Assembly: GCA_028679075.1 (NCBI GenBank)
Contig: JAJRCF010000001.1
Span: 1 to 64,000, forward strand
From: Methanoregula sp.
GTDB lineage: Archaea; Halobacteriota; Methanomicrobia; Methanomicrobiales; Methanospirillaceae
Direction of reading: 5' to 3'
Length of the DNA: 64,000 nt
Positions 30,999-40,587 of the stretch are shown one piece after another; positions within the stretch are counted from its first letter, which is position 1; each line of letters opens with the position of its first letter. The notes below the pieces were generated by a model, which did not search any database, was not told the DNA's origin, and worked only from the letters and a program-made list of their open reading frames with translations. Made by a program: the position numbers and the translations under genes.

Positions 30999-32588
30999 TC
31001 ACCCCCTCTCTGCCGGCAGGGGCGCTGCCCGGTCACCGGCTGCCGGGCCCCGGGCCGGTGCACAGCGTTTCAGTTCATCGATTCCCGGCAGTTCATCTGC
31101 ACTGACCAGCATCCGGTACGGCAGCCGGATCTTCCAGCTCCCCCGGGCCGGATCATAGTCGCCGGCAAAGCTCCTCCCGAAATAGAGCCGGAGGGTGCCG
31201 TAGTTCCAGGTGGCGAAGAATACAACGCGGGGCTTCAGGCAGGCCGGCAGGAACCGGGCAAGGGAACGGGTGATCCCCCATGCCGGTCCTGCGGAGCGGA
31301 GAAGGATTCCCGCCGCATTCCGTACACGGGTGGCGATCCGCCTGCACCGGAACACGGCCCGACCCGTTATCCCGCCGGTGACAGCCCGCCGCGTCTCACC
31401 CCTCCGTGCCCCGATCACCTTCCCGAGGATATCGCCTGCCTGGAGCAGGTCGGGGTCCGGTTCCGGGTTGTTATCACCCTGAGTCACGATACGTGCTCCT
31501 GCGATCCTGACGATCCGGTGGACTACCACCTGCCCGGTTGCTTCCCGCAGGAAGCAGACGACATCTCCCGCAACCGGGGCCGCCTCCCCGTACGGCACCA
31601 CGTCCAGCAGGTCCGGGGAGACGAGCGTGGGGTTCATGCTCGGGCCGGTGTACACGACCGGGATATGGCCGGGCCCAAAAAGGCCGGTGCCCGGGTCGCG
31701 GAGCACGGCCCGGCCGGTCCCTCCCGGTACCGGTTCCGGAGGGACCGTGACCTTCGCTCTCCGGGGAGCCTGACGGGCAAGGGCGTTTTCGATCGCATCC
31801 CAGAACGTCCCGGTCAGGCAGATCTCCAGCCGGTACGCCGGGATAGCACGGGCAAGGGCTGTTGCGGCGGCGATCTCTTCTTCGCAGTGGCGTGCCGCTT
31901 CCTCCGGCGTCCGCCCGGGCTGAGAAGGGATGCCGGTGGTCTGGTGGACAGACTCGGTGATATACGCGACCGCGTCGCCCGTGCCGGCCGGCTCTGCCCG
32001 GTCGTCCTCCGCCCGCGAGAGGAAGAAGAGGGCAGCGAGCGGCACGGACTCTTCAACATTCCAGCGCCCGCCCGGGCCATGGTCCCGGAACCGGCTCCAC
32101 GTGGGCCAGGGGTGGGCCCGGTACCCCCCGTTCCCGTCCGGCACAACAAGCGTTGCATCGTCCGAGAGCGATCGCCACGGGAGAGGGAGGCGGTTGCTGG
32201 CCGTGGTCTTCCCGGTCCCGCCCGGGGCGGCGAGGATGACGCCCCGGCCGTCCTTCTCGGCCAGCGCCCCGTGCAGGAGAAGCCCTCCTGCCGGAAGGGT
32301 CCGCAGGGCGATCGCCTTTGCGAGCTCGCTCATCCGGTTGATCCGGACTTCCCCGTGGTTGCCGGGCGGGAGGAGGCAGATCTCCGGGCCGGCAGTCTCC
32401 TTCGGCTTCCCCGGGGTGCTCCAGCCGGTTGCGACATAGAGATCCGGTCCCCCGGTTGCCGGGGAGAGCTGCATCACCTCCGCAATGTCGCGGACCGTCT
32501 CCTCCGCGAGCGGGTCGGTGGGGATGAGGCGCCACTGCTGCCCGTTCGCGAACCGGATTCCGGTGCAGGGGGCGGAATCGGCAGGCAT
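30999..32588 (-). CDS. scmC: ScmC-like protein: P-loop kinase fused to signal-peptidase-like domain
   Basis: A 529-residue protein. Residues 1-270 match an HPr-kinase-like P-loop module (AAPGGTGKTTASNRL, Lys127; LSDDATLVVPDGNG). Residues 310-400 look like an S26 signal peptidase: VVYTGPSMNPTL with Ser317, QVVVHRIVRI with His357, and TQGDNNPEPD with Asp372, i.e. a Ser-His type site. The C-terminal 110 residues are basic and contain no clear TM helix. In the SynChlorMet cassette ScmC is the P-loop member; the peptidase could cleave the precursor leader. Name and role are inference from context. Confidence 0.7.
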   Translation of the reverse strand: MPADSAPCTGIRFANGQQWRLIPTDPLAEETVRDIAEVMQLSPATGGPDLYVATGWSTPGKPKETAGPEICLLPPGNHGEVRINRMSELAKAIALRTLPAGGLLLHGALAEKDGRGVILAAPGGTGKTTASNRLPLPWRSLSDDATLVVPDGNGGYRAHPWPTWSRFRDHGPGGRWNVEESVPLAALFFLSRAEDDRAEPAGTGDAVAYITESVHQTTGIPSQPGRTPEEAARHCEEEIAAATALARAIPAYRLEICLTGTFWDAIENALARQAPRRAKVTVPPEPVPGGTGRAVLRDPGTGLFGPGHIPVVYTGPSMNPTLVSPDLLDVVPYGEAAPVAGDVVCFLREATGQVVVHRIVRIAGARIVTQGDNNPEPDPDLLQAGDILGKVIGARRGETRRAVTGGITGRAVFRCRRIATRVRNAAGILLRSAGPAWGITRSLARFLPACLKPRVVFFATWNYGTLRLYFGRSFAGDYDPARGSWKIRLPYRMLVSADELPGIDELKRCAPARGPAAGDRAAPLPAERG

Positions 32589-32656
32589 AGTACCCAGAGG
32601 TCGGCAGCCGGAAATATAAATGGGCCGGGATCGATCCTGCGGTGCCGGGGGGTGAC

Positions 32657-32674
32657 GGGGGTCGGACGGTGTAC
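32657..32674 (+). repeat. Third copy of the 18-bp terminal repeat
   Basis: GGGGGTCGGACGGTGTAC differs by one base from the right end of the MITE-like element (32894-32911) and has the same orientation. It may be the end of a second, partial element. Confidence 0.6.
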
Positions 32675-32797
32675 TTCCGCTCAGCCACAGCAAGGCAGGT
32701 TTCCGGATTCCGCGTCCGGTTTTAGGCAGATGTGTGACGTGAAATTTTCTTTCGGATCCTTGTATTGCCTGAGATCATCTGGAGATCCGGTAGTTTA

Positions 32798-32911: not shown

Positions 32912-33101
32912 AAATGGATCGGGCATGGAGCAGTGGCGGATTCCCGGGAGGGGCCTTTCTCATTCGTCCATACACGTTATCGTGCCAACGTAATCTGCGA
33001 CGTCGGGCTGGAAATGAATCCCGGTGCATTGCCCAACAGACCCCCCGGAAACTCCGGTTCACTTCTCCGGATGGGAAAACCCTCCATTCCGGAAAATCCC
33101 G

Positions 33102-33169
33102 CCAATATAAAACCGCAACGCATATTATCCATTACCGGTAAAAAATCAATCACACGAGGTATCCTTCCC
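33102..33169 (+). promoter_or_regulatory. Promoter and leader of scmA copy 1
   Basis: AATATAAAA (33104-33112) is a good archaeal TATA box. The leader (GCAACGC..TATTATCCATTACCGG..AAAAAATCA) is nearly the same as before copy 2, so expression control was duplicated with the gene. GAGGT lies 10 nt before the ATG. Confidence 0.6.
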
Positions 33170-33472
33170 ATGACCGCCACGCCGCACCCGACCGCACAGC
33201 CCAGCGATAAACCCGCCTACGTCCCGCCCCGCGTCATGCGGCTTGGCGACCTGAACGAAGGCGCCGGGGCGTGTACGGCCGGGAGCGGGGTGGTGGCGGT
33301 TGTAAGTTGTTCTATACCTGGATCCGGTGCTACTGGCACCTGCGAGATTAATGGTAATTCGGCGGGGCTGATGTGTAATGGTAGTGGTAGTACTGCTACA
33401 ACAAATCTATGTTCAGCAAATGGTGATTCTGCTCTAACGATTTGCAATTCGAATGGGAATGGAGTGACGTAA
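33170..33472 (+). CDS. scmA1: ScmA-like RiPP precursor, copy 1
   Basis: A 100-residue precursor-like peptide. The leader (PAYVPPRVMRLGDLNEGAGA) is almost identical to copy 2; the rest is a low-complexity Gly/Ser/Asn/Thr/Ala core. Cysteines fall at 35, 47, 58, 69, 81 and 92, i.e. every 11-12 residues, often followed by Asn/Gly units. Tyr-x2-Pro-x-Val-x3-Gly in the leader resembles leader motifs bound by PqqD-like (RRE) domains. The adjacent radical SAM proteins probably install thioether or other crosslinks on the core. The name follows the SynChlorMet cassette by inference. Confidence 0.75.
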   Translation: MTATPHPTAQPSDKPAYVPPRVMRLGDLNEGAGACTAGSGVVAVVSCSIPGSGATGTCEINGNSAGLMCNGSGSTATTNLCSANGDSALTICNSNGNGVT

Positions 33473-33633
33473 CCCTCCACGGAGATCCTCTGATCCACCC
33501 GGATCCCGGTTCCGGGAACGGCTGCTCTCACCTTTTTTGATCCCTTCCTGAATTTGTGTCAGGGACCGGCAATAGACCGACACTAAGACGATAGTCCGGT
33601 CCCTGAGATCAGAGACTCGCTTTTCGCTCCTTC

Positions 33634-33745
33634 ATCCGGCTTTCCGGGAACACCCCTCTCCGGGCCGCCTCATCGCACAACCACGGCGGCGAGACCAGTT
33701 TCCCGCCATAGCCGTAATTGTTCGCAACGCAAAGCCGGTCCGGCG
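33634..33745 (-). pseudogene. Duplicated 3' fragment of scmF
   Basis: This stretch repeats the last ~110 bp of the radical SAM gene (34319-34430) with only a few differences, then diverges. It encodes GKLVSPPWLCDEAARRG on the minus strand but has no start. It marks one edge of a tandem duplication that also produced two scmA copies. Confidence 0.8.
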
Positions 33746-33868
33746 CGTACGAGAAAGAGACCGGGCAGTACCTGCGACGAATTTCCCCGTAACGCCACCA
33801 ATAGGACCTCCGCAGAACCGCCCGTTTCCTTCACATCCAGAAAAACCCTCCATTCTAAAAAATCCCAC

Positions 33869-33935
33869 AGATATAAGAACGCAACGCCTATTATCCATTA
33901 CCGGCAAAAAATCACTCATACTAGGTATTGTTACC
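33869..33935 (+). promoter_or_regulatory. Promoter and leader of scmA copy 2
   Basis: AGATATAAGA (33869-33878) is the TATA-like box matching that of copy 1, followed by the same GCAACGC...TTATCCATTACCGG leader. AGGT lies 10 nt before the ATG. Confidence 0.55.
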
Positions 33936-34232
33936 ATGACCGCCATGCCGCACCCGAGCGCACAGCCCAAAGGAAAGCCTGCCTACGTCCCGCCCCGTGT
34001 CATGCGGCTCGGCGACCTCAACGATGGCGCAGGAGCCTGCGCTGCCGGAAGCGGAGTGGTTTCGACTGATTGTACCCCTTCTGGGGCGGCGGCAAATGGC
34101 GGAAGCTGTTTGGTGGGTAATCAGGCTGCAGCAGGCACCTGCGATAGTGGTAATTATGCTGCTGCGGGTTCCTGCAATATGAGTGGGGGTACCGCACAAT
34201 TAGGATGCACTACTGGAACAACCCCTACCTGA
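33936..34232 (+). CDS. scmA2: ScmA-like RiPP precursor, copy 2
   Basis: A 98-residue peptide. Its first 34 residues differ from copy 1 at only a few positions; the core is different in sequence but keeps six cysteines at 35, 46, 58, 69, 80 and 91. Core units read like SCLVGNQAAAGTCDSGNYAA, each about 11 residues with small residues around the Cys. The conserved spacing with free variation between suggests the Cys residues are the modified sites. It converges on scmF. Confidence 0.75.
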   Translation: MTAMPHPSAQPKGKPAYVPPRVMRLGDLNDGAGACAAGSGVVSTDCTPSGAAANGGSCLVGNQAAAGTCDSGNYAAAGSCNMSGGTAQLGCTTGTTPT

Positions 34233-34302
34233 TTTTCTTTCAGCGGCACGACCATTTCCGATCTCAAATGTCTATCAAAACCCTGCTGATAATGTATTGA
34301 TA

Positions 34303-35487
34303 TTAGTATCGTACCCGCATCCGGCTTTCCGGGAACACCCCTCTCCGGGCCGCCTCATCGCACAACCACGGCGGCGAGACCAGTTTCCCGCCATACCCGT
34401 AGTTGTTCGCAACACAGCCGGTCCGGCAGGTCCGGGCGTGGATGCAGTTCCCGCAGATGCCGGGATAGTTCGCAACATCGGCAAGGTCCTTCCGGAGCCC
34501 CTGGATGACCGGGTTGTTCAGCCAGATATCGCGGATGCTCGTCTCACCCAGCTTCCCGTACACCAGCTCGGGGATGGTCTGGCCGATCCCGCAGAGGGCG
34601 ATCTCGCCCGTGCCGATGATCCCGAGGATGCCGGCAACCCCGCAGTCGCAGGCCTTTCCCTTTGTCCGCCAGAGCTCGTTGAACGGTGTTAAGGCCGGGG
34701 GCATGGAGAGGAAGAGCTCGACCTTGGCTTTGGGCCGGAGTTCCTCGTTCACGTACCGGGCAAGATCGATGTACTCGTCAAAGCCGATCGTCTCGCCCTT
34801 CTCGTGCATCGCGATGCCGCGGCCGGTCTTTGTCACCGGGTTGAACTTCACCGACCGTGCCTTGTGCTGAACGGCAAGGTCGATCACATCCTGCATCTGG
34901 TGCCGGTTCTTCCGGTGGATGGTCATGATCACCTGGCAGTTGTCGTAGCCTGCCGCAACAAGGCAGTCGAGCCCCCGGAGGGCGGCTTCATACGCACCTT
35001 TCACGCCTCGGAAGGCGTCGTGCTCCGCTGCAACGGGTGAGTCGATGCTCACCGAAGCAAACCAGCACTTTGTCTCCTTCTTCAAAAACTGCGCCAGCTC
35101 CGGGGTCATGAGCGTCCCGTTCGTCTCCATGTTGAACGAGATCCCCTCCTCGGTCAGCATCGCAGCCACCTCGCGGAACTGCGGGTGGTGCATCGGCTCG
35201 CCGCCGGTCAGCTTGGCGCAGCCAAGGCCGAGCGTCTTGGCCTCGCGGATCGCTTCCCGGAGTGCGTCGAGGTCGATATACATTCCCGGCACGGGCTTGC
35301 CGCCGGCATACTCCGGCGCGATCCAGCAGTGCCGGCACCGGAGATTGCAGGTCGAGGTCAGGTACAGGTAGAAAGAGCGGAGCGGCGGCACGCCCTCCGG
35401 AAGATCGAGCGGGCGGGCGGGCTCTGCCGGGGTAGCGGCAGGAGCCGGGGGGGAAGCGGGTTCGGGACAGGTATCGCAGAACGTCAT
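34303..35487 (-). CDS. scmF: Radical SAM/SPASM maturase (ScmF-like)
   Basis: A 394-residue radical SAM enzyme. The SAM-cluster motif is CNLRCRHC (C47, C51, C54); KLTGGEPMHH is the GGE motif. The C-terminal SPASM domain binds auxiliary clusters through ALCGIGQ and an intact CGNCIHARTCRTGC (CX2CX5CX3C), ending with a last Cys in PPWLCDEA. It would modify the ScmA core. AGGAG lies before the start at 35487, whose A is shared with the TAA that ends the upstream radical SAM frame. Assignment to ScmF versus ScmE is by order and is not certain. Confidence 0.85.
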   Translation of the reverse strand: MTFCDTCPEPASPPAPAATPAEPARPLDLPEGVPPLRSFYLYLTSTCNLRCRHCWIAPEYAGGKPVPGMYIDLDALREAIREAKTLGLGCAKLTGGEPMHHPQFREVAAMLTEEGISFNMETNGTLMTPELAQFLKKETKCWFASVSIDSPVAAEHDAFRGVKGAYEAALRGLDCLVAAGYDNCQVIMTIHRKNRHQMQDVIDLAVQHKARSVKFNPVTKTGRGIAMHEKGETIGFDEYIDLARYVNEELRPKAKVELFLSMPPALTPFNELWRTKGKACDCGVAGILGIIGTGEIALCGIGQTIPELVYGKLGETSIRDIWLNNPVIQGLRKDLADVANYPGICGNCIHARTCRTGCVANNYGYGGKLVSPPWLCDEAARRGVFPESRMRVRY

Positions 35488-36617
35488 TATGGATTCTCCT
35501 GTGCATAGGCACGGTAGCAGGAGGTGGGATCGGTGCCGATCAGTCTGCCGGACTTTGCCAGCACCGAGGCGGGACAGCCGCCAGCGCAGAACCCGGTGTA
35601 CCGTCAGCCGGCGCACTCGGGAAGCGCCGAAAGCGGGATCTTCCGGCGCAGCCGGACGGCATTGATGGCCGGGGAGTGGAGCCAGGCGTCCTGCAGGGAG
35701 TGGAGGCCGACCACCCCCATCGTCAGGGTCGGGAGCATGTTGCAGGGCACCATCGTGCCATCGTGCAGGATTGCCATCTTGGAGAAGACCCCGCCGCAGG
35801 AGCAGAGCGTGCCCCGGCCGGGCGTGCCGGTCTCGCCCCGGGCCAGCTTCTCCTCGATCTCAGATACCATCTTCGCCCGGGAGAGCGGGCCGGCGGTCGC
35901 GCTGATCCGGTTGCCGTACCGTTCGTTCAGGTCCGTCAGGGTCTTCATCGCGAGCCGGCGCTCCTCCTCGTCCAGAACGATCGTCTGGCCACCGCACCGG
36001 GCCGACCCCATCTCCTCGGCCTCGTTGGTGGAGAACCCGGGAAGGCCGATCTCGTCGATGAGAAGGGCCGCGATCTTCTCCAGGTCACGGACATTGTGGT
36101 GGTTGATGGTGGTCCGGACCGTGACGGGGAACTTGTTGTCTGCAAGGAGCCGGAGGCCCCGCACGGCACGGTCGAAACTCTTGTGCGGCCGCGAAAGGTC
36201 ATGGACCTCTGCGCAGGAGCCGTCGATCGAGACCTGGATCGAGTCCATCCGGAGCCGGCGCTTCCCCTCCTGGAACGCGGCAATGGTCTCCTCAGTTATC
36301 AGCGTCCCGTTCGAGAGGATGGAGTACCGCATCTTATTTGCAATCAGCCCGTCGATCAGGGTGAAGAGGTCGTTTCTTACAAAGACCTCGCCACCTGAGA
36401 GGCAGGCCCGCTGGACGCCGAGGCTCCCCAGCTCCGCAAAACAGGCAAGCCAGCGTTCCGCGGGAAGGTCGGTCCGGGTGTGCATGCTGTCGGCATAGAA
36501 ACAGTACCCGCAGGAGAGGTTGCACCGGCCGGTGAGCGAGAGGTCCACGGACTTCGGGGCCGGCATAAGCCCTTTCGGCGGCACGGTCAGGTCGGCATAC
36601 AGCGGGTGGTCCGGCAT
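35487..36617 (-). CDS. scmE: Radical SAM/SPASM maturase with in-frame TGA (ScmE-like)
   Basis: A radical SAM protein starting at 36617 (CNLSCGYC motif, C32/C36/C39; CLSGGEVF). Annotated conventionally it would stop at the TGA at 35604-35606 after LPECAG (337 residues). But the frame continues for 38 codons, RYTGFCAGGCPASVLAKSG onward, to a TAA at 35487-35489 that overlaps the next ATG. Together this is C-x2-[TGA]-x5-C-x3-C, the SPASM cluster motif with TGA at its second Cys. So it is either a selenocysteine or readthrough codon, a nonsense mutation, or a base error. Confidence 0.8.
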
Positions 36618-36621
36618 GGCC

Positions 36622-36963
36622 CTAACACTCCGAGACAAAACCCGGGGCAAGGTCCTTCACGAATGCCTCGGCATCCTTCTGCACGGAGGCCGTGTCGGGG
36701 AGGTTGCTGTACGACCCTGCAACAAACGCGACGATCTCGCCGACCGTGTGGGGCTCGGACAAATAGTTCCAGATGAGGATCCCGGTCGGGTTGATCAGCC
36801 GGGTGGTGTCGGTGTCCGGGTTGAAGAGCACGGCACCGGCATCCCCTTCGATCCGGCACGAGACATCGGGGTTTGCGACAAACATTGCGGTAGCGCTGAT
36901 GCCGGAATCTGCACTGCTCTCTGTGCCTGCTGCCGGGCCGGGGGTACGGGTATCGGGTTTCAT
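36622..36963 (-). CDS. scmD: PqqD-like peptide-binding protein (ScmD-like)
   Basis: A 113-residue protein with the PqqD fold: NPDVSCRIEGDAGAVLFNPD, TTRLINPTGILIWNYL, HTVGEIVAFVAGSY, then an amphipathic helix. Such RRE domains bind the precursor leader and deliver it to a radical SAM enzyme. It lies 4 bp upstream of scmE and its start follows GGAGTGACAG. The N-terminal 25 residues are disordered (Pro/Ser/Thr). Confidence 0.8.
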   Translation of the reverse strand: MKPDTRTPGPAAGTESSADSGISATAMFVANPDVSCRIEGDAGAVLFNPDTDTTRLINPTGILIWNYLSEPHTVGEIVAFVAGSYSNLPDTASVQKDAEAFVKDLAPGFVSEC

Positions 36964-36998
36964 CTGTCACTCCATGGTTCAAAAATATTCTTTTGTCC

Positions 36999-37301
36999 TT
37001 ATCGCAGGGTCCCGGGGATCTCGTACCCGACGAACCCGTCGTCTGCAAGGGTTGCAAGCAGGGTATCCACGTCAGCCTGCACAGCCTCCGGTGCCATGCC
37101 GAAGTGGTGGCCGACCGCTTCCGCAATGGCACCCGGACTGCGCATGCCATCGATGAACTTCCAGACCAGCGTGCCGGTGGCGTTGACCGCAACGGCGGTT
37201 CCCGTGTCGCAGTTCACCATGACGCTTCCCCCGTCAGGTGCCTCGCGGGAGACAACCGCGGGGTTGGGTACGGGAATGGTACCAAAACGTGTCCTGTCCA
37301 T
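36999..37301 (-). CDS. Second PqqD-like protein of the cassette
   Basis: A 100-residue PqqD-like domain: NPAVVSREAPDGGSVMVNCD, TAVAVNATGTLVWKFIDG, SPGAIAEAVGHHFG. It differs clearly from the ScmD-like protein, so the two may serve the two radical SAM enzymes or two steps. It is the first gene of the minus-strand operon; it could correspond to ScmB, which I cannot confirm. An AT-rich ATATAAAAAATATAAC stretch 15-35 bp upstream is the likely promoter of a leaderless message. Confidence 0.7.
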   Translation of the reverse strand: MDRTRFGTIPVPNPAVVSREAPDGGSVMVNCDTGTAVAVNATGTLVWKFIDGMRSPGAIAEAVGHHFGMAPEAVQADVDTLLATLADDGFVGYEIPGTLR

Positions 37302-37311
37302 GACGAGTACC

Positions 37312-37341
37312 GGTAATATAAAAAATATAACCATATATAGT
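37312..37341 (-). promoter_or_regulatory. TATA region of the PqqD/radical SAM operon
   Basis: AATATAAAAAATATAACC lies 15-30 bp before the ATG at 37301 on the minus strand, at the spacing for a leaderless archaeal transcript. It would drive both pqqD-like genes and both radical SAM genes. Confidence 0.5.
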
Positions 37342-37483
37342 CCGCAGGTTTAATTTTTGTAAAAGAAAACCGGTTTTCGGGAAAAAATCCAGAAAAGATC
37401 TCCCGCTGCAACCGTTTTTGTTCCGGATCCGGGAAAACCCGGCACGTGACCGCCGGAACCGATGATCCCTGCACCGGAGTACC

Positions 37484-39313
37484 ATGAAACCCGTTCCCCG
37501 ACCGGCCACGCTCATCCGCCACCTCTCCTCCATCAGGATTGTCCTGGAGAAGGCGATCCGGCAGGTCTTCACCTATACCCCGGGCCTTACCCTCCTCTCG
37601 ATGGCGCTCATCGTTGTCCAGGGGCTCCTCCCGCTCGCGGCCCTGTACGTGATGAAGCTGATGATCGATACGGTCACGGCCGCGATCGGGGCAGCGGACA
37701 AGGGACCGCTCCTGACCCAGCTCTGGTTCCTGATCGCACTCGCGGCAGGGCTTGCCCTGCTGGCAACGGTTGTCCGGGCGATCGCTTCCTACTGTTCTGA
37801 AGTCCAGTCGATCACGCTCTCCGACATCGTTACCGATCATATCCAGGAACACTCGCTCCGGCTCGACCTGGCCTACTACGAGAACCCGGCGTATCACAAT
37901 AACCTGCGGCTCGCCCAGATGGGCGGGGCAGCAAGGTCCACCCAGGTAGTCTCCAATGTCACCCGCGTCCTGCAGAGCATCATCTCGCTCTGCGCTGTCG
38001 GCGGGGCCATCCTCCTCTTCTCCCCGTTCGTTGCCCTCCTCCTTGTCGGGGCCGCCCTGCCGGCGGCCATTGTCCGGCTCGTCAACGCCCGGCAGCAGTA
38101 CGAGCTGCAGGTCCGGCAGACCGAGGCAATGCGCCGGAGCGGCTATTACAACTCGCTCATCACCGAGGCATGGTACGCAAGGGAGATCCGGCAGTTCGGC
38201 CTTGGCAACCTCTTCCGGCAGCGCTACCGCGGCCTCCAGTACGCCCTGCGGGACGCCAGGCTCGCCCTCTCGCGCTCGCGGGCCGTGGGCGATGTCCTGA
38301 CGCAGGGGATCGTCACGGCCGCCGTCTTTGGCGCATTTGCCATCATCGCCATGAAAGCCATCGAGGGGACGCTCTCGGTCGGTGACCTGGTGATGTTCTT
38401 CATGGGCTTCCAGCTCTGCATCGGGTATATCCAGGCCATCTTCACCGGCATGAACGCCCTGTACGAGGACCATCTCTTCCTGCGTCACCTCTTTGCATTC
38501 TACGATATACAGCCCCGGATCGCTGCCCCGGAGCATCCCGCTCCCCTGCCCGTGCCATTCCATGAAATACAGTTCTCGGGAGTCTCCTACACCTACCCGG
38601 GCGTTGCCACCCCCGCGATCGCGGACGTCAGCCTTACCCTCAGAAAGGGCGAGATCCTTGCCCTTGTCGGGGAGAACGGCGCGGGAAAGAGCACGTTTGT
38701 CAAGCTCCTCTCCCGGCTCTACGACCCGGACAAAGGGACGGTCTCGGTAGACGGGATCGACCTGAAGGCAGCCGATCCGGACGCGTGGCGGGAACACACC
38801 GCGGTCTTCTTCCAGGACTTTGTCCGGTACCAGTTCACGGTCGGGGAGAACATCTGGGTGGGGGACGTGACCCGGCCCCGGGATACCCCGGGCATCGGGG
38901 AAGCTGCCCATAAAGCTGCTGCCGATCCGGTGGTGAGAAAACTCGCCGACGGCCTCGACACCCAGCTCGGGCGGCTCTTTGCCGGGGGCCATGACCTCTC
39001 CACCGGCGAATGGCAGAAGATCGCCCTGGCCCGGACCTTCTTCCGCGACGCGGACCTGGTCATCCTCGACGAGCCGGCCAGCTCGCTCGACGCCCTTGCC
39101 GAAGCGGAGATCTTCAACCGTTTCCGCGAGCTGGTGAAAGGCCGAACGGCCGTCATCGTCAGCCACCGCTTCTCAACCGTGCTTATCGCAGACCGCATCT
39201 GCGTCTTTGAGGAGGGAAGGATCACCGAGATGGGATCGCATGCGGAACTGATGGCGCAGGGCGGGCATTACGCGAAGATGTACCGGGCGCAGGCCGACGC
39301 CTACCAGCAGTGA
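37484..39313 (+). CDS. ABC exporter (fused TM and ATPase domains)
   Basis: A 609-residue half-transporter. The N-terminal part has six TM helices; the ATPase has Walker A GENGAGKST, signature LSTGEWQKIALARTF (LSTGE), Walker B LVILDEPASSLD and H-loop IVSHRFST. There is no N-terminal C39 peptidase domain, so leader removal must be done by another protein, perhaps the peptidase-like half of ScmC. It is divergent from the maturase operon and likely exports the modified peptide. GGAG lies before the ATG. Confidence 0.88.
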   Translation: MKPVPRPATLIRHLSSIRIVLEKAIRQVFTYTPGLTLLSMALIVVQGLLPLAALYVMKLMIDTVTAAIGAADKGPLLTQLWFLIALAAGLALLATVVRAIASYCSEVQSITLSDIVTDHIQEHSLRLDLAYYENPAYHNNLRLAQMGGAARSTQVVSNVTRVLQSIISLCAVGGAILLFSPFVALLLVGAALPAAIVRLVNARQQYELQVRQTEAMRRSGYYNSLITEAWYAREIRQFGLGNLFRQRYRGLQYALRDARLALSRSRAVGDVLTQGIVTAAVFGAFAIIAMKAIEGTLSVGDLVMFFMGFQLCIGYIQAIFTGMNALYEDHLFLRHLFAFYDIQPRIAAPEHPAPLPVPFHEIQFSGVSYTYPGVATPAIADVSLTLRKGEILALVGENGAGKSTFVKLLSRLYDPDKGTVSVDGIDLKAADPDAWREHTAVFFQDFVRYQFTVGENIWVGDVTRPRDTPGIGEAAHKAAADPVVRKLADGLDTQLGRLFAGGHDLSTGEWQKIALARTFFRDADLVILDEPASSLDALAEAEIFNRFRELVKGRTAVIVSHRFSTVLIADRICVFEEGRITEMGSHAELMAQGGHYAKMYRAQADAYQQ

Positions 39314-39330
39314 GCCGGGGACCCATCACC

Positions 39331-40587
39331 TCATAACCGGAAGGTCACGATCCGGGACCAGCGCCGCATGTGGGCAAGCGGTATGTCAAGGGAGGAAGAG
39401 GACTTCCGGTACTCCCAGAGCAGGGGTGTCGGGGGAATGAGAAAAACCTGCACGTAACGGAGTTTTTCGAAGAATCCCGGCCGCTGCTGCATGGCAAGAA
39501 TGAGGCGCGAGAGGAAGAAGAGCCGTGCATGGGAGAATTTTTTCTGGAGGCGGACCTCTCCCGCCGAAGGGGACGGCCACGTGGAGAACTCCCCGGCACC
39601 TTCAGGGAGGGGCGTCCCCGACCAGACGCTTGTTGCTGCAAGGCAGTGTTCCAGCGGGATCCGGACTTTGTTCTCCACGGACTGACGGACCAGTTCCTCC
39701 CATTCTTCACGGGAAGGGATCTGGTGCATGACCCGCGCTATGTCGCCGATCCAGTCAAGTCTGATGGTTCGGTGCTGGAATGCATCATGGAAGACGAGGT
39801 ACAGGAGCTGGTCAGCCGGGCAGAAGGTATCGAACGAGACGCCGCCCGAGTGAACGGTGATCCGCCGCGAGAACGCAGCATCCAGCCAGTCTTCAGAAAA
39901 GAGGCCGAACTCGTTTGCCGTCGCCCAGTGCAGCTGAAGGCGCAGTCCCTTCCCCGGGGGGAAGAACTTCTCGTGATGATCGGCATACGGATAGATGTGG
40001 AAGATCTTTACCGGGCAGGTGTACCCGAGATCTTCCAGCACTGCCTCCGCTGCCGGGATAGCGTCCGGGAGAACGATCATGTCGATATCGCTGGATTGAC
40101 GGAGTGTGGGGTCGGGATAGACGGTTCGTGCCAGCGCAGGGCCCTTTAAGAGGATGATGGGGACACCGGCCTCCTTCATGGCACGGGTGACTGCATGGAT
40201 CTGCTGGCCGGCGAGCAGTGTCCTTGCCATGGCGGTCAGCGAGATGCGTTCCAGATATTCCCGGATTTCCTGCGGGGGCCGGCATTCCTCCGGCCAGGAG
40301 CGGAGGTGGCAGGCAATGAGGGGATAGATCCAGTGAGGCCGCAGCAGGGAGAGGAATGCCTGCCAGTCGTCAAGGGAACGGCGGGGAGGAATGGACGGGG
40401 TATTCCTGACCAGCGATACAAGGTAGATGAGGAGATCATCCGAAAGAGAGAGCAGGTCATTTGCCGGATCTCCCGCAAGAGGGAGATTTTTGTGGAGTGC
40501 TCTCAGGATCGCCGGCAGAGGATCCACCGGATCCGGGGTTTGCAGAAAAAACCCTGAAGAGTGTCCCTGATCGCTGACTCCATGCAT
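39331..40587 (-). CDS. Nucleotidyltransferase of the NTP_transf_5 type
   Basis: A 418-residue protein. The nucleotidyltransferase core is IILLKGPALARTVYPDP, then RQSSDIDMIVLPD with the DxD metal site, and later GLRLQLHWATANEFG. Such proteins often sit next to PqqD, HPr-kinase-like and ABC genes in peptide-modification clusters. It converges on the ABC transporter gene with an 17-bp gap. Substrate unknown. Confidence 0.75.
   Translation of the reverse strand: MHGVSDQGHSSGFFLQTPDPVDPLPAILRALHKNLPLAGDPANDLLSLSDDLLIYLVSLVRNTPSIPPRRSLDDWQAFLSLLRPHWIYPLIACHLRSWPEECRPPQEIREYLERISLTAMARTLLAGQQIHAVTRAMKEAGVPIILLKGPALARTVYPDPTLRQSSDIDMIVLPDAIPAAEAVLEDLGYTCPVKIFHIYPYADHHEKFFPPGKGLRLQLHWATANEFGLFSEDWLDAAFSRRITVHSGGVSFDTFCPADQLLYLVFHDAFQHRTIRLDWIGDIARVMHQIPSREEWEELVRQSVENKVRIPLEHCLAATSVWSGTPLPEGAGEFSTWPSPSAGEVRLQKKFSHARLFFLSRLILAMQQRPGFFEKLRYVQVFLIPPTPLLWEYRKSSSSLDIPLAHMRRWSRIVTFRL

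Follow-up and report, generated by a model that had tools for sequence, protein, structure and literature searches.

An in-frame TGA at an invariant SPASM cysteine codon of an scmE-like gene from Methanoregula sp. is very probably not recoded

Introduction

Does a TGA that takes the place of a cluster-ligand cysteine codon in a well-maintained archaeal gene specify selenocysteine, is it read through in some other way, or is it simply a stop? This question is raised by a 64,000-nucleotide stretch of DNA from Methanoregula sp. (Methanomicrobiales), here called the window, in which the gene for an ScmE-like radical SAM/SPASM maturase carries one in-frame TGA. The stop sits exactly on the residue that selenocysteine (Sec) or cysteine recoding would need. 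A preliminary description of the locus left two possibilities, namely selenocysteine or readthrough in a maturase, or a recent nonsense mutation that would disable the cassette. Of these, the recent nonsense mutation fits the analysis reported here, whereas neither the selenocysteine reading nor readthrough finds support in it. Very probably there is no recoding at this site, and the TGA is either a young nonsense lesion or an assembly error within a divergent SynChlorMet cassette.

If recoding were true, the use of Sec or the recoding of UGA to cysteine would enter an order for which the consulted portions of the reviews cited below report neither, and the orphan factor aSelBL could gain a role. 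In-frame UGA codons at conserved cysteines are, on the other side of the balance, expected by chance in cysteine-rich Fe-S enzymes.

The scmE-like gene and its internal stop codon

The scmE-like gene is located at positions 35487..36617 of the reverse strand and finds its best NCBIfam model in TIGR04250 (ScmE). When the ATG-started frame is read from 36617 to 35487, its sole internal stop is a TGA at codon 338 (35604..35606, reverse strand). The alignment assigns this codon to the column of C338, the second cysteine of the SPASM motif CX2CX5CX3C, which consists of C335, C338, C344 and C348; the SPASM match of the gene ends just before the TGA. Downstream of the stop, 38 coding-like codons (35490..35603, reverse strand; RYTGFCAGGC...YAQENP) retain C344, C348 and C367 and lead to a TAA at 35489-35487 that shares one base with the ATG of the following scmF-like gene (TAATG). 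The latter keeps its own SPASM motif, CGNCIHARTCRTGC. The preliminary description had placed the TGA at the second cysteine of the motif, had counted 38 further codons up to a TAA overlapping the next ATG and had called the motif of the neighbouring ScmF intact, and all of this is borne out. The radical SAM motif CX3CX2C is also present, and its cysteines C32, C36 and C39 are invariant in an alignment of 17 sequences.

The read-through protein scores 364 bits against TIGR04250 and covers positions 1-352 of the 358 profile positions, without reaching the curated cut-off of 400, and it is 78-81% identical to three stop-free relatives. When the same cut-off was tried on six ScmE relatives, three exceeded it (L024, L027 and L083) and three fell below it (L013 with 371.5, L015 with 379.4 and L018 with 279 bits). 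Because the window gene and three of its relatives all score below 400, they are taken to form a divergent ScmE branch. A second copy of ScmE was not detected in the same genome at E 1e-40.

The position of the stop on a cysteine codon has to be judged against the routes by which a stop can arise. A count for scmE gives 88 one-step nonsense paths, of which 20 yield TGA; 10 of these 20 fall on the ten invariant cysteine codons of the gene, which can become a stop in one step only as TGA. With half of the TGA-making paths hitting an invariant cysteine, a stop that lands on such a residue is unsurprising, and a site of this kind alone is weak evidence for selenocysteine. A general reassignment of TGA is likewise unlikely, since TGA terminates 9 of the 14 inspected frames of the window.

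The codon at the site in ScmE homologues

ScmE homologues (E <=1e-40) are found in 19 of the 232 genomes of the order, including the one that contains the window. Within these 19, only the window's genome has a stop at the cysteine; one other genome, G202, has stops elsewhere in scmE. The codon at the site was looked up in 51 loci (L012-L031, L079-L095 and L182-L195), which come from the 232 genomes of the order, from GTDB contigs (among the matches listed) and from a 392-genome sample of the phylum. The column is not reached in three of these loci (L028, L090 and L095). The site counts leave out L096-L158, which are weaker GTDB-contig matches, and L177-L181 come from genomes already read.

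Besides the window gene, 34 rows have at least 40% identity, and removal of two duplicates by DNA identity leaves 32 distinct homologues. All 32 of them, among the matches listed, carry a cysteine codon at the site, including two (L029 and L030) that are lesioned elsewhere. The same applies, again among the matches listed, to 12 of 12 distinct relatives with less than 40% identity (13 rows with one duplicate dropped). A comparison of the codon across relatives had been suggested along with the two possibilities named above, and it finds the TGA to be unique to this copy, which alone among the ScmE proteins read has a stop at this invariant cysteine. A stop where all 32 relatives have a sense codon is the pattern sought in a pseudogene. 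It also speaks against selenocysteine, because UGA occupies the site in no other ScmE that was read, and for the same reason against leaky termination.

The distribution of ScmE in the order is patchy, with copies in, for example, G001 (L013), G139 (L014) and G179 (L015). The closest copy (81% identity) comes from a different family within the order, and the copy from the same genus is 78% identical. Taken together, the closest ScmE lying outside the family and the patchy distribution suggest, at the level of sequence, that the cassette has moved by horizontal transfer.

Damaged scmE genes were encountered in two further genomes. In G202 (L030), another genome of the family, scmE is interrupted by two in-frame TGAs, where the window gene encodes Gly and Ser, and by a frameshift in the interval of codons 207-222; a third TGA precedes the probable start. 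In G104, a genome of 59% completeness, scmE has a frameshift near codon 157. The scmE gene of G202 resembles the one in the window in belonging to the same family and in being broken by in-frame TGA, but its two TGAs lie off the cysteines and are accompanied by a frameshift, so that its decay is further along. It thus seems that scmE has been lost more than once in the order, with no link to cysteine, and an assembly error is possible in these cases too.

Selection and the age of the stop

The scmE gene of the window is under strong purifying selection on both sides of the TGA, with omega values of 0.085 to 0.109 against four relatives; a fifth comparison (G199) is saturated. Behind the TGA, the alignment with the four closest relatives comprises 36 positions, 34 of which match at least one relative. 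Residues that differ from all four relatives occur at 2 of 36 positions after the TGA and at 46 of 334 upstream of it (Fisher p = 0.20), and departures from positions at which the four relatives agree amount to 0 of 36 versus 23 of 334 (p = 0.15). Substitutions after the TGA are relatively more often synonymous. The frame behind the stop therefore has the appearance of genuine coding sequence.

A gene that was dead over the whole branch should have gathered about 36 to 67 replacements in the tail if the branch dS is taken as 0.45 to 0.85. The share of the branch spent dead is bounded (95%) at 8.6% for a dS of 0.45 and at 2.6% for 0.65, in a rough model that uses the minimum count and gives no fit at a dS of 0.85. 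No relaxation of selection is seen after the TGA, which is equally compatible with a young lesion, an assembly error or readthrough; the lack of decay means that the stop is very young, or was introduced by assembly, or is read through.

We favor the first of these explanations and consider an ordinary young nonsense lesion of scmE likely. According to this proposal, a very recent nonsense change, rather than the less likely consensus error, would have turned the invariant SPASM cysteine codon into a stop, the UGA would be read as an ordinary stop, and scmE would show no further decay because the lesion is young.

A consensus or assembly error would mean that the scmE gene of the organism is intact and that the stop exists only in the draft or belongs to a minority strain merged with it. 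Such an error would be in line with a difference of one codon in a draft of 40 contigs and with the good maintenance of scmE in every other respect, the part after the stop included. No stop interrupts any of the genome's 24 radical SAM domain matches, which argues weakly against an error, but these matches comprise domain cores only. Overall, we regard an assembly error as possible but rather unlikely.

The maintained frame could also be accounted for by leaky termination, in which a near-cognate tRNA for Cys, Trp or Arg would read the UGA at low frequency and so provide enough full-length ScmE. The base 3' of the UGA is a C; UGA-C is a leaky context, and the tRNAs for Cys, Trp and Arg are near-cognate to UGA. 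The constraint on both sides of the stop would follow from such a reading as well. However, a young lesion explains the missing decay equally well, and a tRNA with a UCA anticodon was not found among the tRNA matches described below. Leaky termination is accordingly rated as very improbable.

Selenocysteine machinery

Sec-using archaea were described as confined to Methanococcales and Methanopyrales in the consulted text of PMC2933860, and Lokiarchaeota (PMC9312934) and Asgard archaea (PMC13188914) were added later. The consulted portions of these three sources are in agreement with the preliminary description, which remarked that no Sec is known from Methanomicrobiales. Sec as an auxiliary-cluster ligand would make ScmE an archaeal selenoprotein, and two observations are in favor of this: the UGA at an invariant cysteine with a maintained frame downstream, and the listing of radical SAM proteins among prokaryotic selenoproteins (PMC13188914). 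Among the features by which archaeal selenoproteins are recognized, an in-frame UGA at the cysteine of the homologues is present, whereas the Sec synthesis genes, a tRNA-Sec with UCA anticodon, aSelB and a SECIS element were not found in the searches described in the following.

SepSecS (TIGR03531) is above cut-off in 0 of 232 genomes of the order, 21 of which give weak matches of at most 20.4 bits compared to a cut-off of 224.85. Among the 14 controls, M. jannaschii alone is positive. The Pfam model for SepSecS, PF05889, proved to be unspecific and was replaced by TIGR03531: it matches 217 of the 232 genomes, with the rows listed covering only part of the profile, and also Bacillus subtilis and Synechococcus elongatus. 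In the window's own genome, PSTK gave no match (1 of 14 controls over cut-off), and selD gave six matches, none over cut-off, of which the best reaches 87.6 bits against 125 (controls 2 of 14). The SelB model TIGR00475 likewise produced six matches in this genome and none over cut-off (controls 2 of 14), and one of them (L171) is EF-1A by eye, while another (L173) is the SelB-like protein described below. The searches for PSTK, selD and SelB cover the window's own genome, a draft of 40 contigs with 90.24% completeness, in which absence is not proof.

A tRNA-Sec over cut-off was found in 0 of the 39 genomes of the genus, the window's own included, and in 5 of the 14 controls. Seven weak tRNA-Sec loci of the own genome are tRNAs for Arg, Ser, Arg, Gly, Leu, Met with Asn, and Arg, and two weak loci read among the matches of the genus are Ser(tga) and Arg(tcg). 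A UCA anticodon is absent from all 42 tRNA matches of the own genome. ARAGORN read the anticodon in 39 of these, and the remaining three, which were resolved by eye and by allowing introns, are tRNA-Tyr (Asn according to ARAGORN), tRNA-Met and a tRNA-Cys gene cut by a contig end. This census is incomplete, as tRNA-Trp was not recovered, nor were some others such as Ser(gct); these gaps are probably due to long introns or to missing parts of the 90% complete draft.

SECIS families are absent from the Rfam matches in 34200-37400. A relaxed pattern scan of the 1300 bases after the TGA, run without a positive control and using the GAA/A motif of methanogens as built from PMC11881835, returned no SECIS of this type; at its loosest setting 0.245 matches are expected at random. 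A first scan also came up empty, but with an expectation of zero at random it carries little weight.

Thus, SepSecS, tRNA-Sec, selD and SelB all stay below cut-off, PSTK has no match and a SECIS element was not found, which stands against the selenocysteine proposal of the preliminary description; we assign it an almost negligible probability. Radical SAM proteins of the families rSAM_SeCys (TIGR04167) and TrsS (NF045646) are listed as selenoproteins (PMC13188914), the former also in PMC9312934. They differ from the scmE of the window by their need for a Sec-decoding system, which was not found in the searches above, and they are set apart here on this ground.

The SelB-like protein

The own genome encodes a SelB-like protein (L173) of 323 amino acids, located at 1054-2025 of contig C18. 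Among solved structures, it scores best against 3wnb, which is deposited as an elongation factor 1A (125.3 bits), and against SelB 4ac9 (61.6 bits). By its short form, the protein fits the aSelBL type. In the accessible text of PMC3037878, aSelBL is reported in Methanomicrobiales without aSelB or SelD, is judged unlikely to bind selenocysteinyl-tRNA, and has cysteine as its most likely amino acid. Because aSelBL occurs in Sec-free archaea, the presence of this protein is no evidence for Sec, and its fit to the aSelBL type argues against selenocysteine at the site.

The same protein is a point in favor of leaky termination, which could be aided by a SelB-like factor of the aSelBL type, in particular as cysteine is suggested for aSelBL in PMC3037878. 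A more specific variant would be that cysteine (or else a near-cognate amino acid) is inserted for UGA at this single cluster-ligand position and that aSelBL favors the delivery of Cys-tRNA. If true, the SelB relative of a Sec-free methanogen would be a Cys-recoding factor. We entertain this possibility mainly because cysteine is named as the likeliest amino acid in that source, and the chance that it holds is exceedingly small.

Predicted consequences for ScmE

In anSME, auxiliary cluster II is held by cysteines 317, 320, 326 and 348, and C313 of PqqE corresponds to Cys320 of anSME (PMC5715301); the KW cyclase was modelled with the same auxiliary layout as anSME (PMC5491770). The counterpart of C338 belongs to auxiliary cluster II according to the consulted portions of both sources. 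A profile alignment places C335, C338, C344 and C348 of ScmE on the matching motif of the solved chain 5v1q. By order, C338 would come second among the auxiliary II ligands and C367 would close the series, the latter by extrapolation, as the 5v1q alignment ends before C367.

With UGA as a stop, the translated product does not contain the full set of SPASM cysteines. A 337-residue ScmE would result, which would keep the radical SAM core with C32, C36 and C39 and would lack C338, C344, C348 and C367, i.e., three of four auxiliary II ligands and one of three auxiliary I ligands. As these four cysteines would be lost, the truncated ScmE is expected to be inactive or unstable, and a nonsense lesion would in this way probably disable ScmE. 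Termination about 117 bases before the overlapping start of scmF may also reduce the translation of scmF.

Experimental data on related enzymes indicate that such an effect does not follow from every cysteine exchange. In PqqE, the C313S variant changes the counterpart of C338; iron content and SAM cleavage are lowered, the protein is stable, and SAM cleavage remains at about half. Over the auxiliary II mutants, the figure for SAM cleavage is 49-63%. In the KW cyclase, exchange of another ligand of the same cluster (C406A) leaves very low activity, and the C437A variant is as active as the wild type (PMC5715301 and PMC5491770 for all variants). By analogy, losing one auxiliary cysteine need not kill a SPASM enzyme, but these variants are single substitutions in full-length proteins, whereas termination in the scmE of the window would remove four cysteines together with the rest of the domain.

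The cassette and its neighbors

As in the SynChlorMet cassette from which ScmE (TIGR04250) is known, the scmE-like gene is accompanied by scmF-, scmD- and scmC-like genes and by an ABC transporter gene. The scmC-like protein exceeds its cut-off, while the scmF-like protein and both scmD-like proteins remain below theirs. The scmF-like radical SAM/SPASM gene (34303..35487, reverse strand) has no internal stop, and its TIGR04251 score of 350.6 bits (cut-off 400) was taken on the longer frame 34303-35616. Upstream of scmE, two genes of the PqqD family are scmD-like, copy 1 at 36622..36963 and copy 2 at 36999..37334 (both reverse strand), with TIGR04248 scores of 46.8 and 40.1 bits, respectively (cut-off 100). 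The scmC-like gene (30999..32693, reverse strand) reaches 173 bits against TIGR04249 (cut-off 125). Behind its ScmC domain, residues 344-427 of the encoded protein match TIGR02228 below cut-off; this signal-peptidase-I-like stretch is perhaps a fused leader peptidase.

The ABC transporter gene, an MsbA-like permease/ATPase by NCBIfam, lies beside the cassette at 37484..39313 of the forward strand. Homologues of it are present in the scmE stretches of G001, G139, G179 and G208; the one in G199 is weaker. The adjoining gene at 39331..40587 (reverse strand) is nucleotidyltransferase-like by eye only and has no NCBIfam match; a homologue with 55% identity is present in the stretch of G179.

Two candidate precursor peptides, at 33170..33472 and 33936..34232 of the forward strand, are scmA-like by position and composition. 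Neither has an NCBIfam match, and by tblastn both resemble loci in G001 and G179. The region 33076-34416 is a tandem duplication, in which the scmA-like leader region occurs twice (219 nucleotides, 84% identity) and the two copies are separated by a 108-nucleotide piece of the 3' end of scmF that shares 94% identity with 34309-34416. In the leader, 36 of 42 positions agree between the two precursors, compared to 16 of 53 in the core. Judging from this comparison, the core appears to have diverged between the copies, while the leader has been retained.
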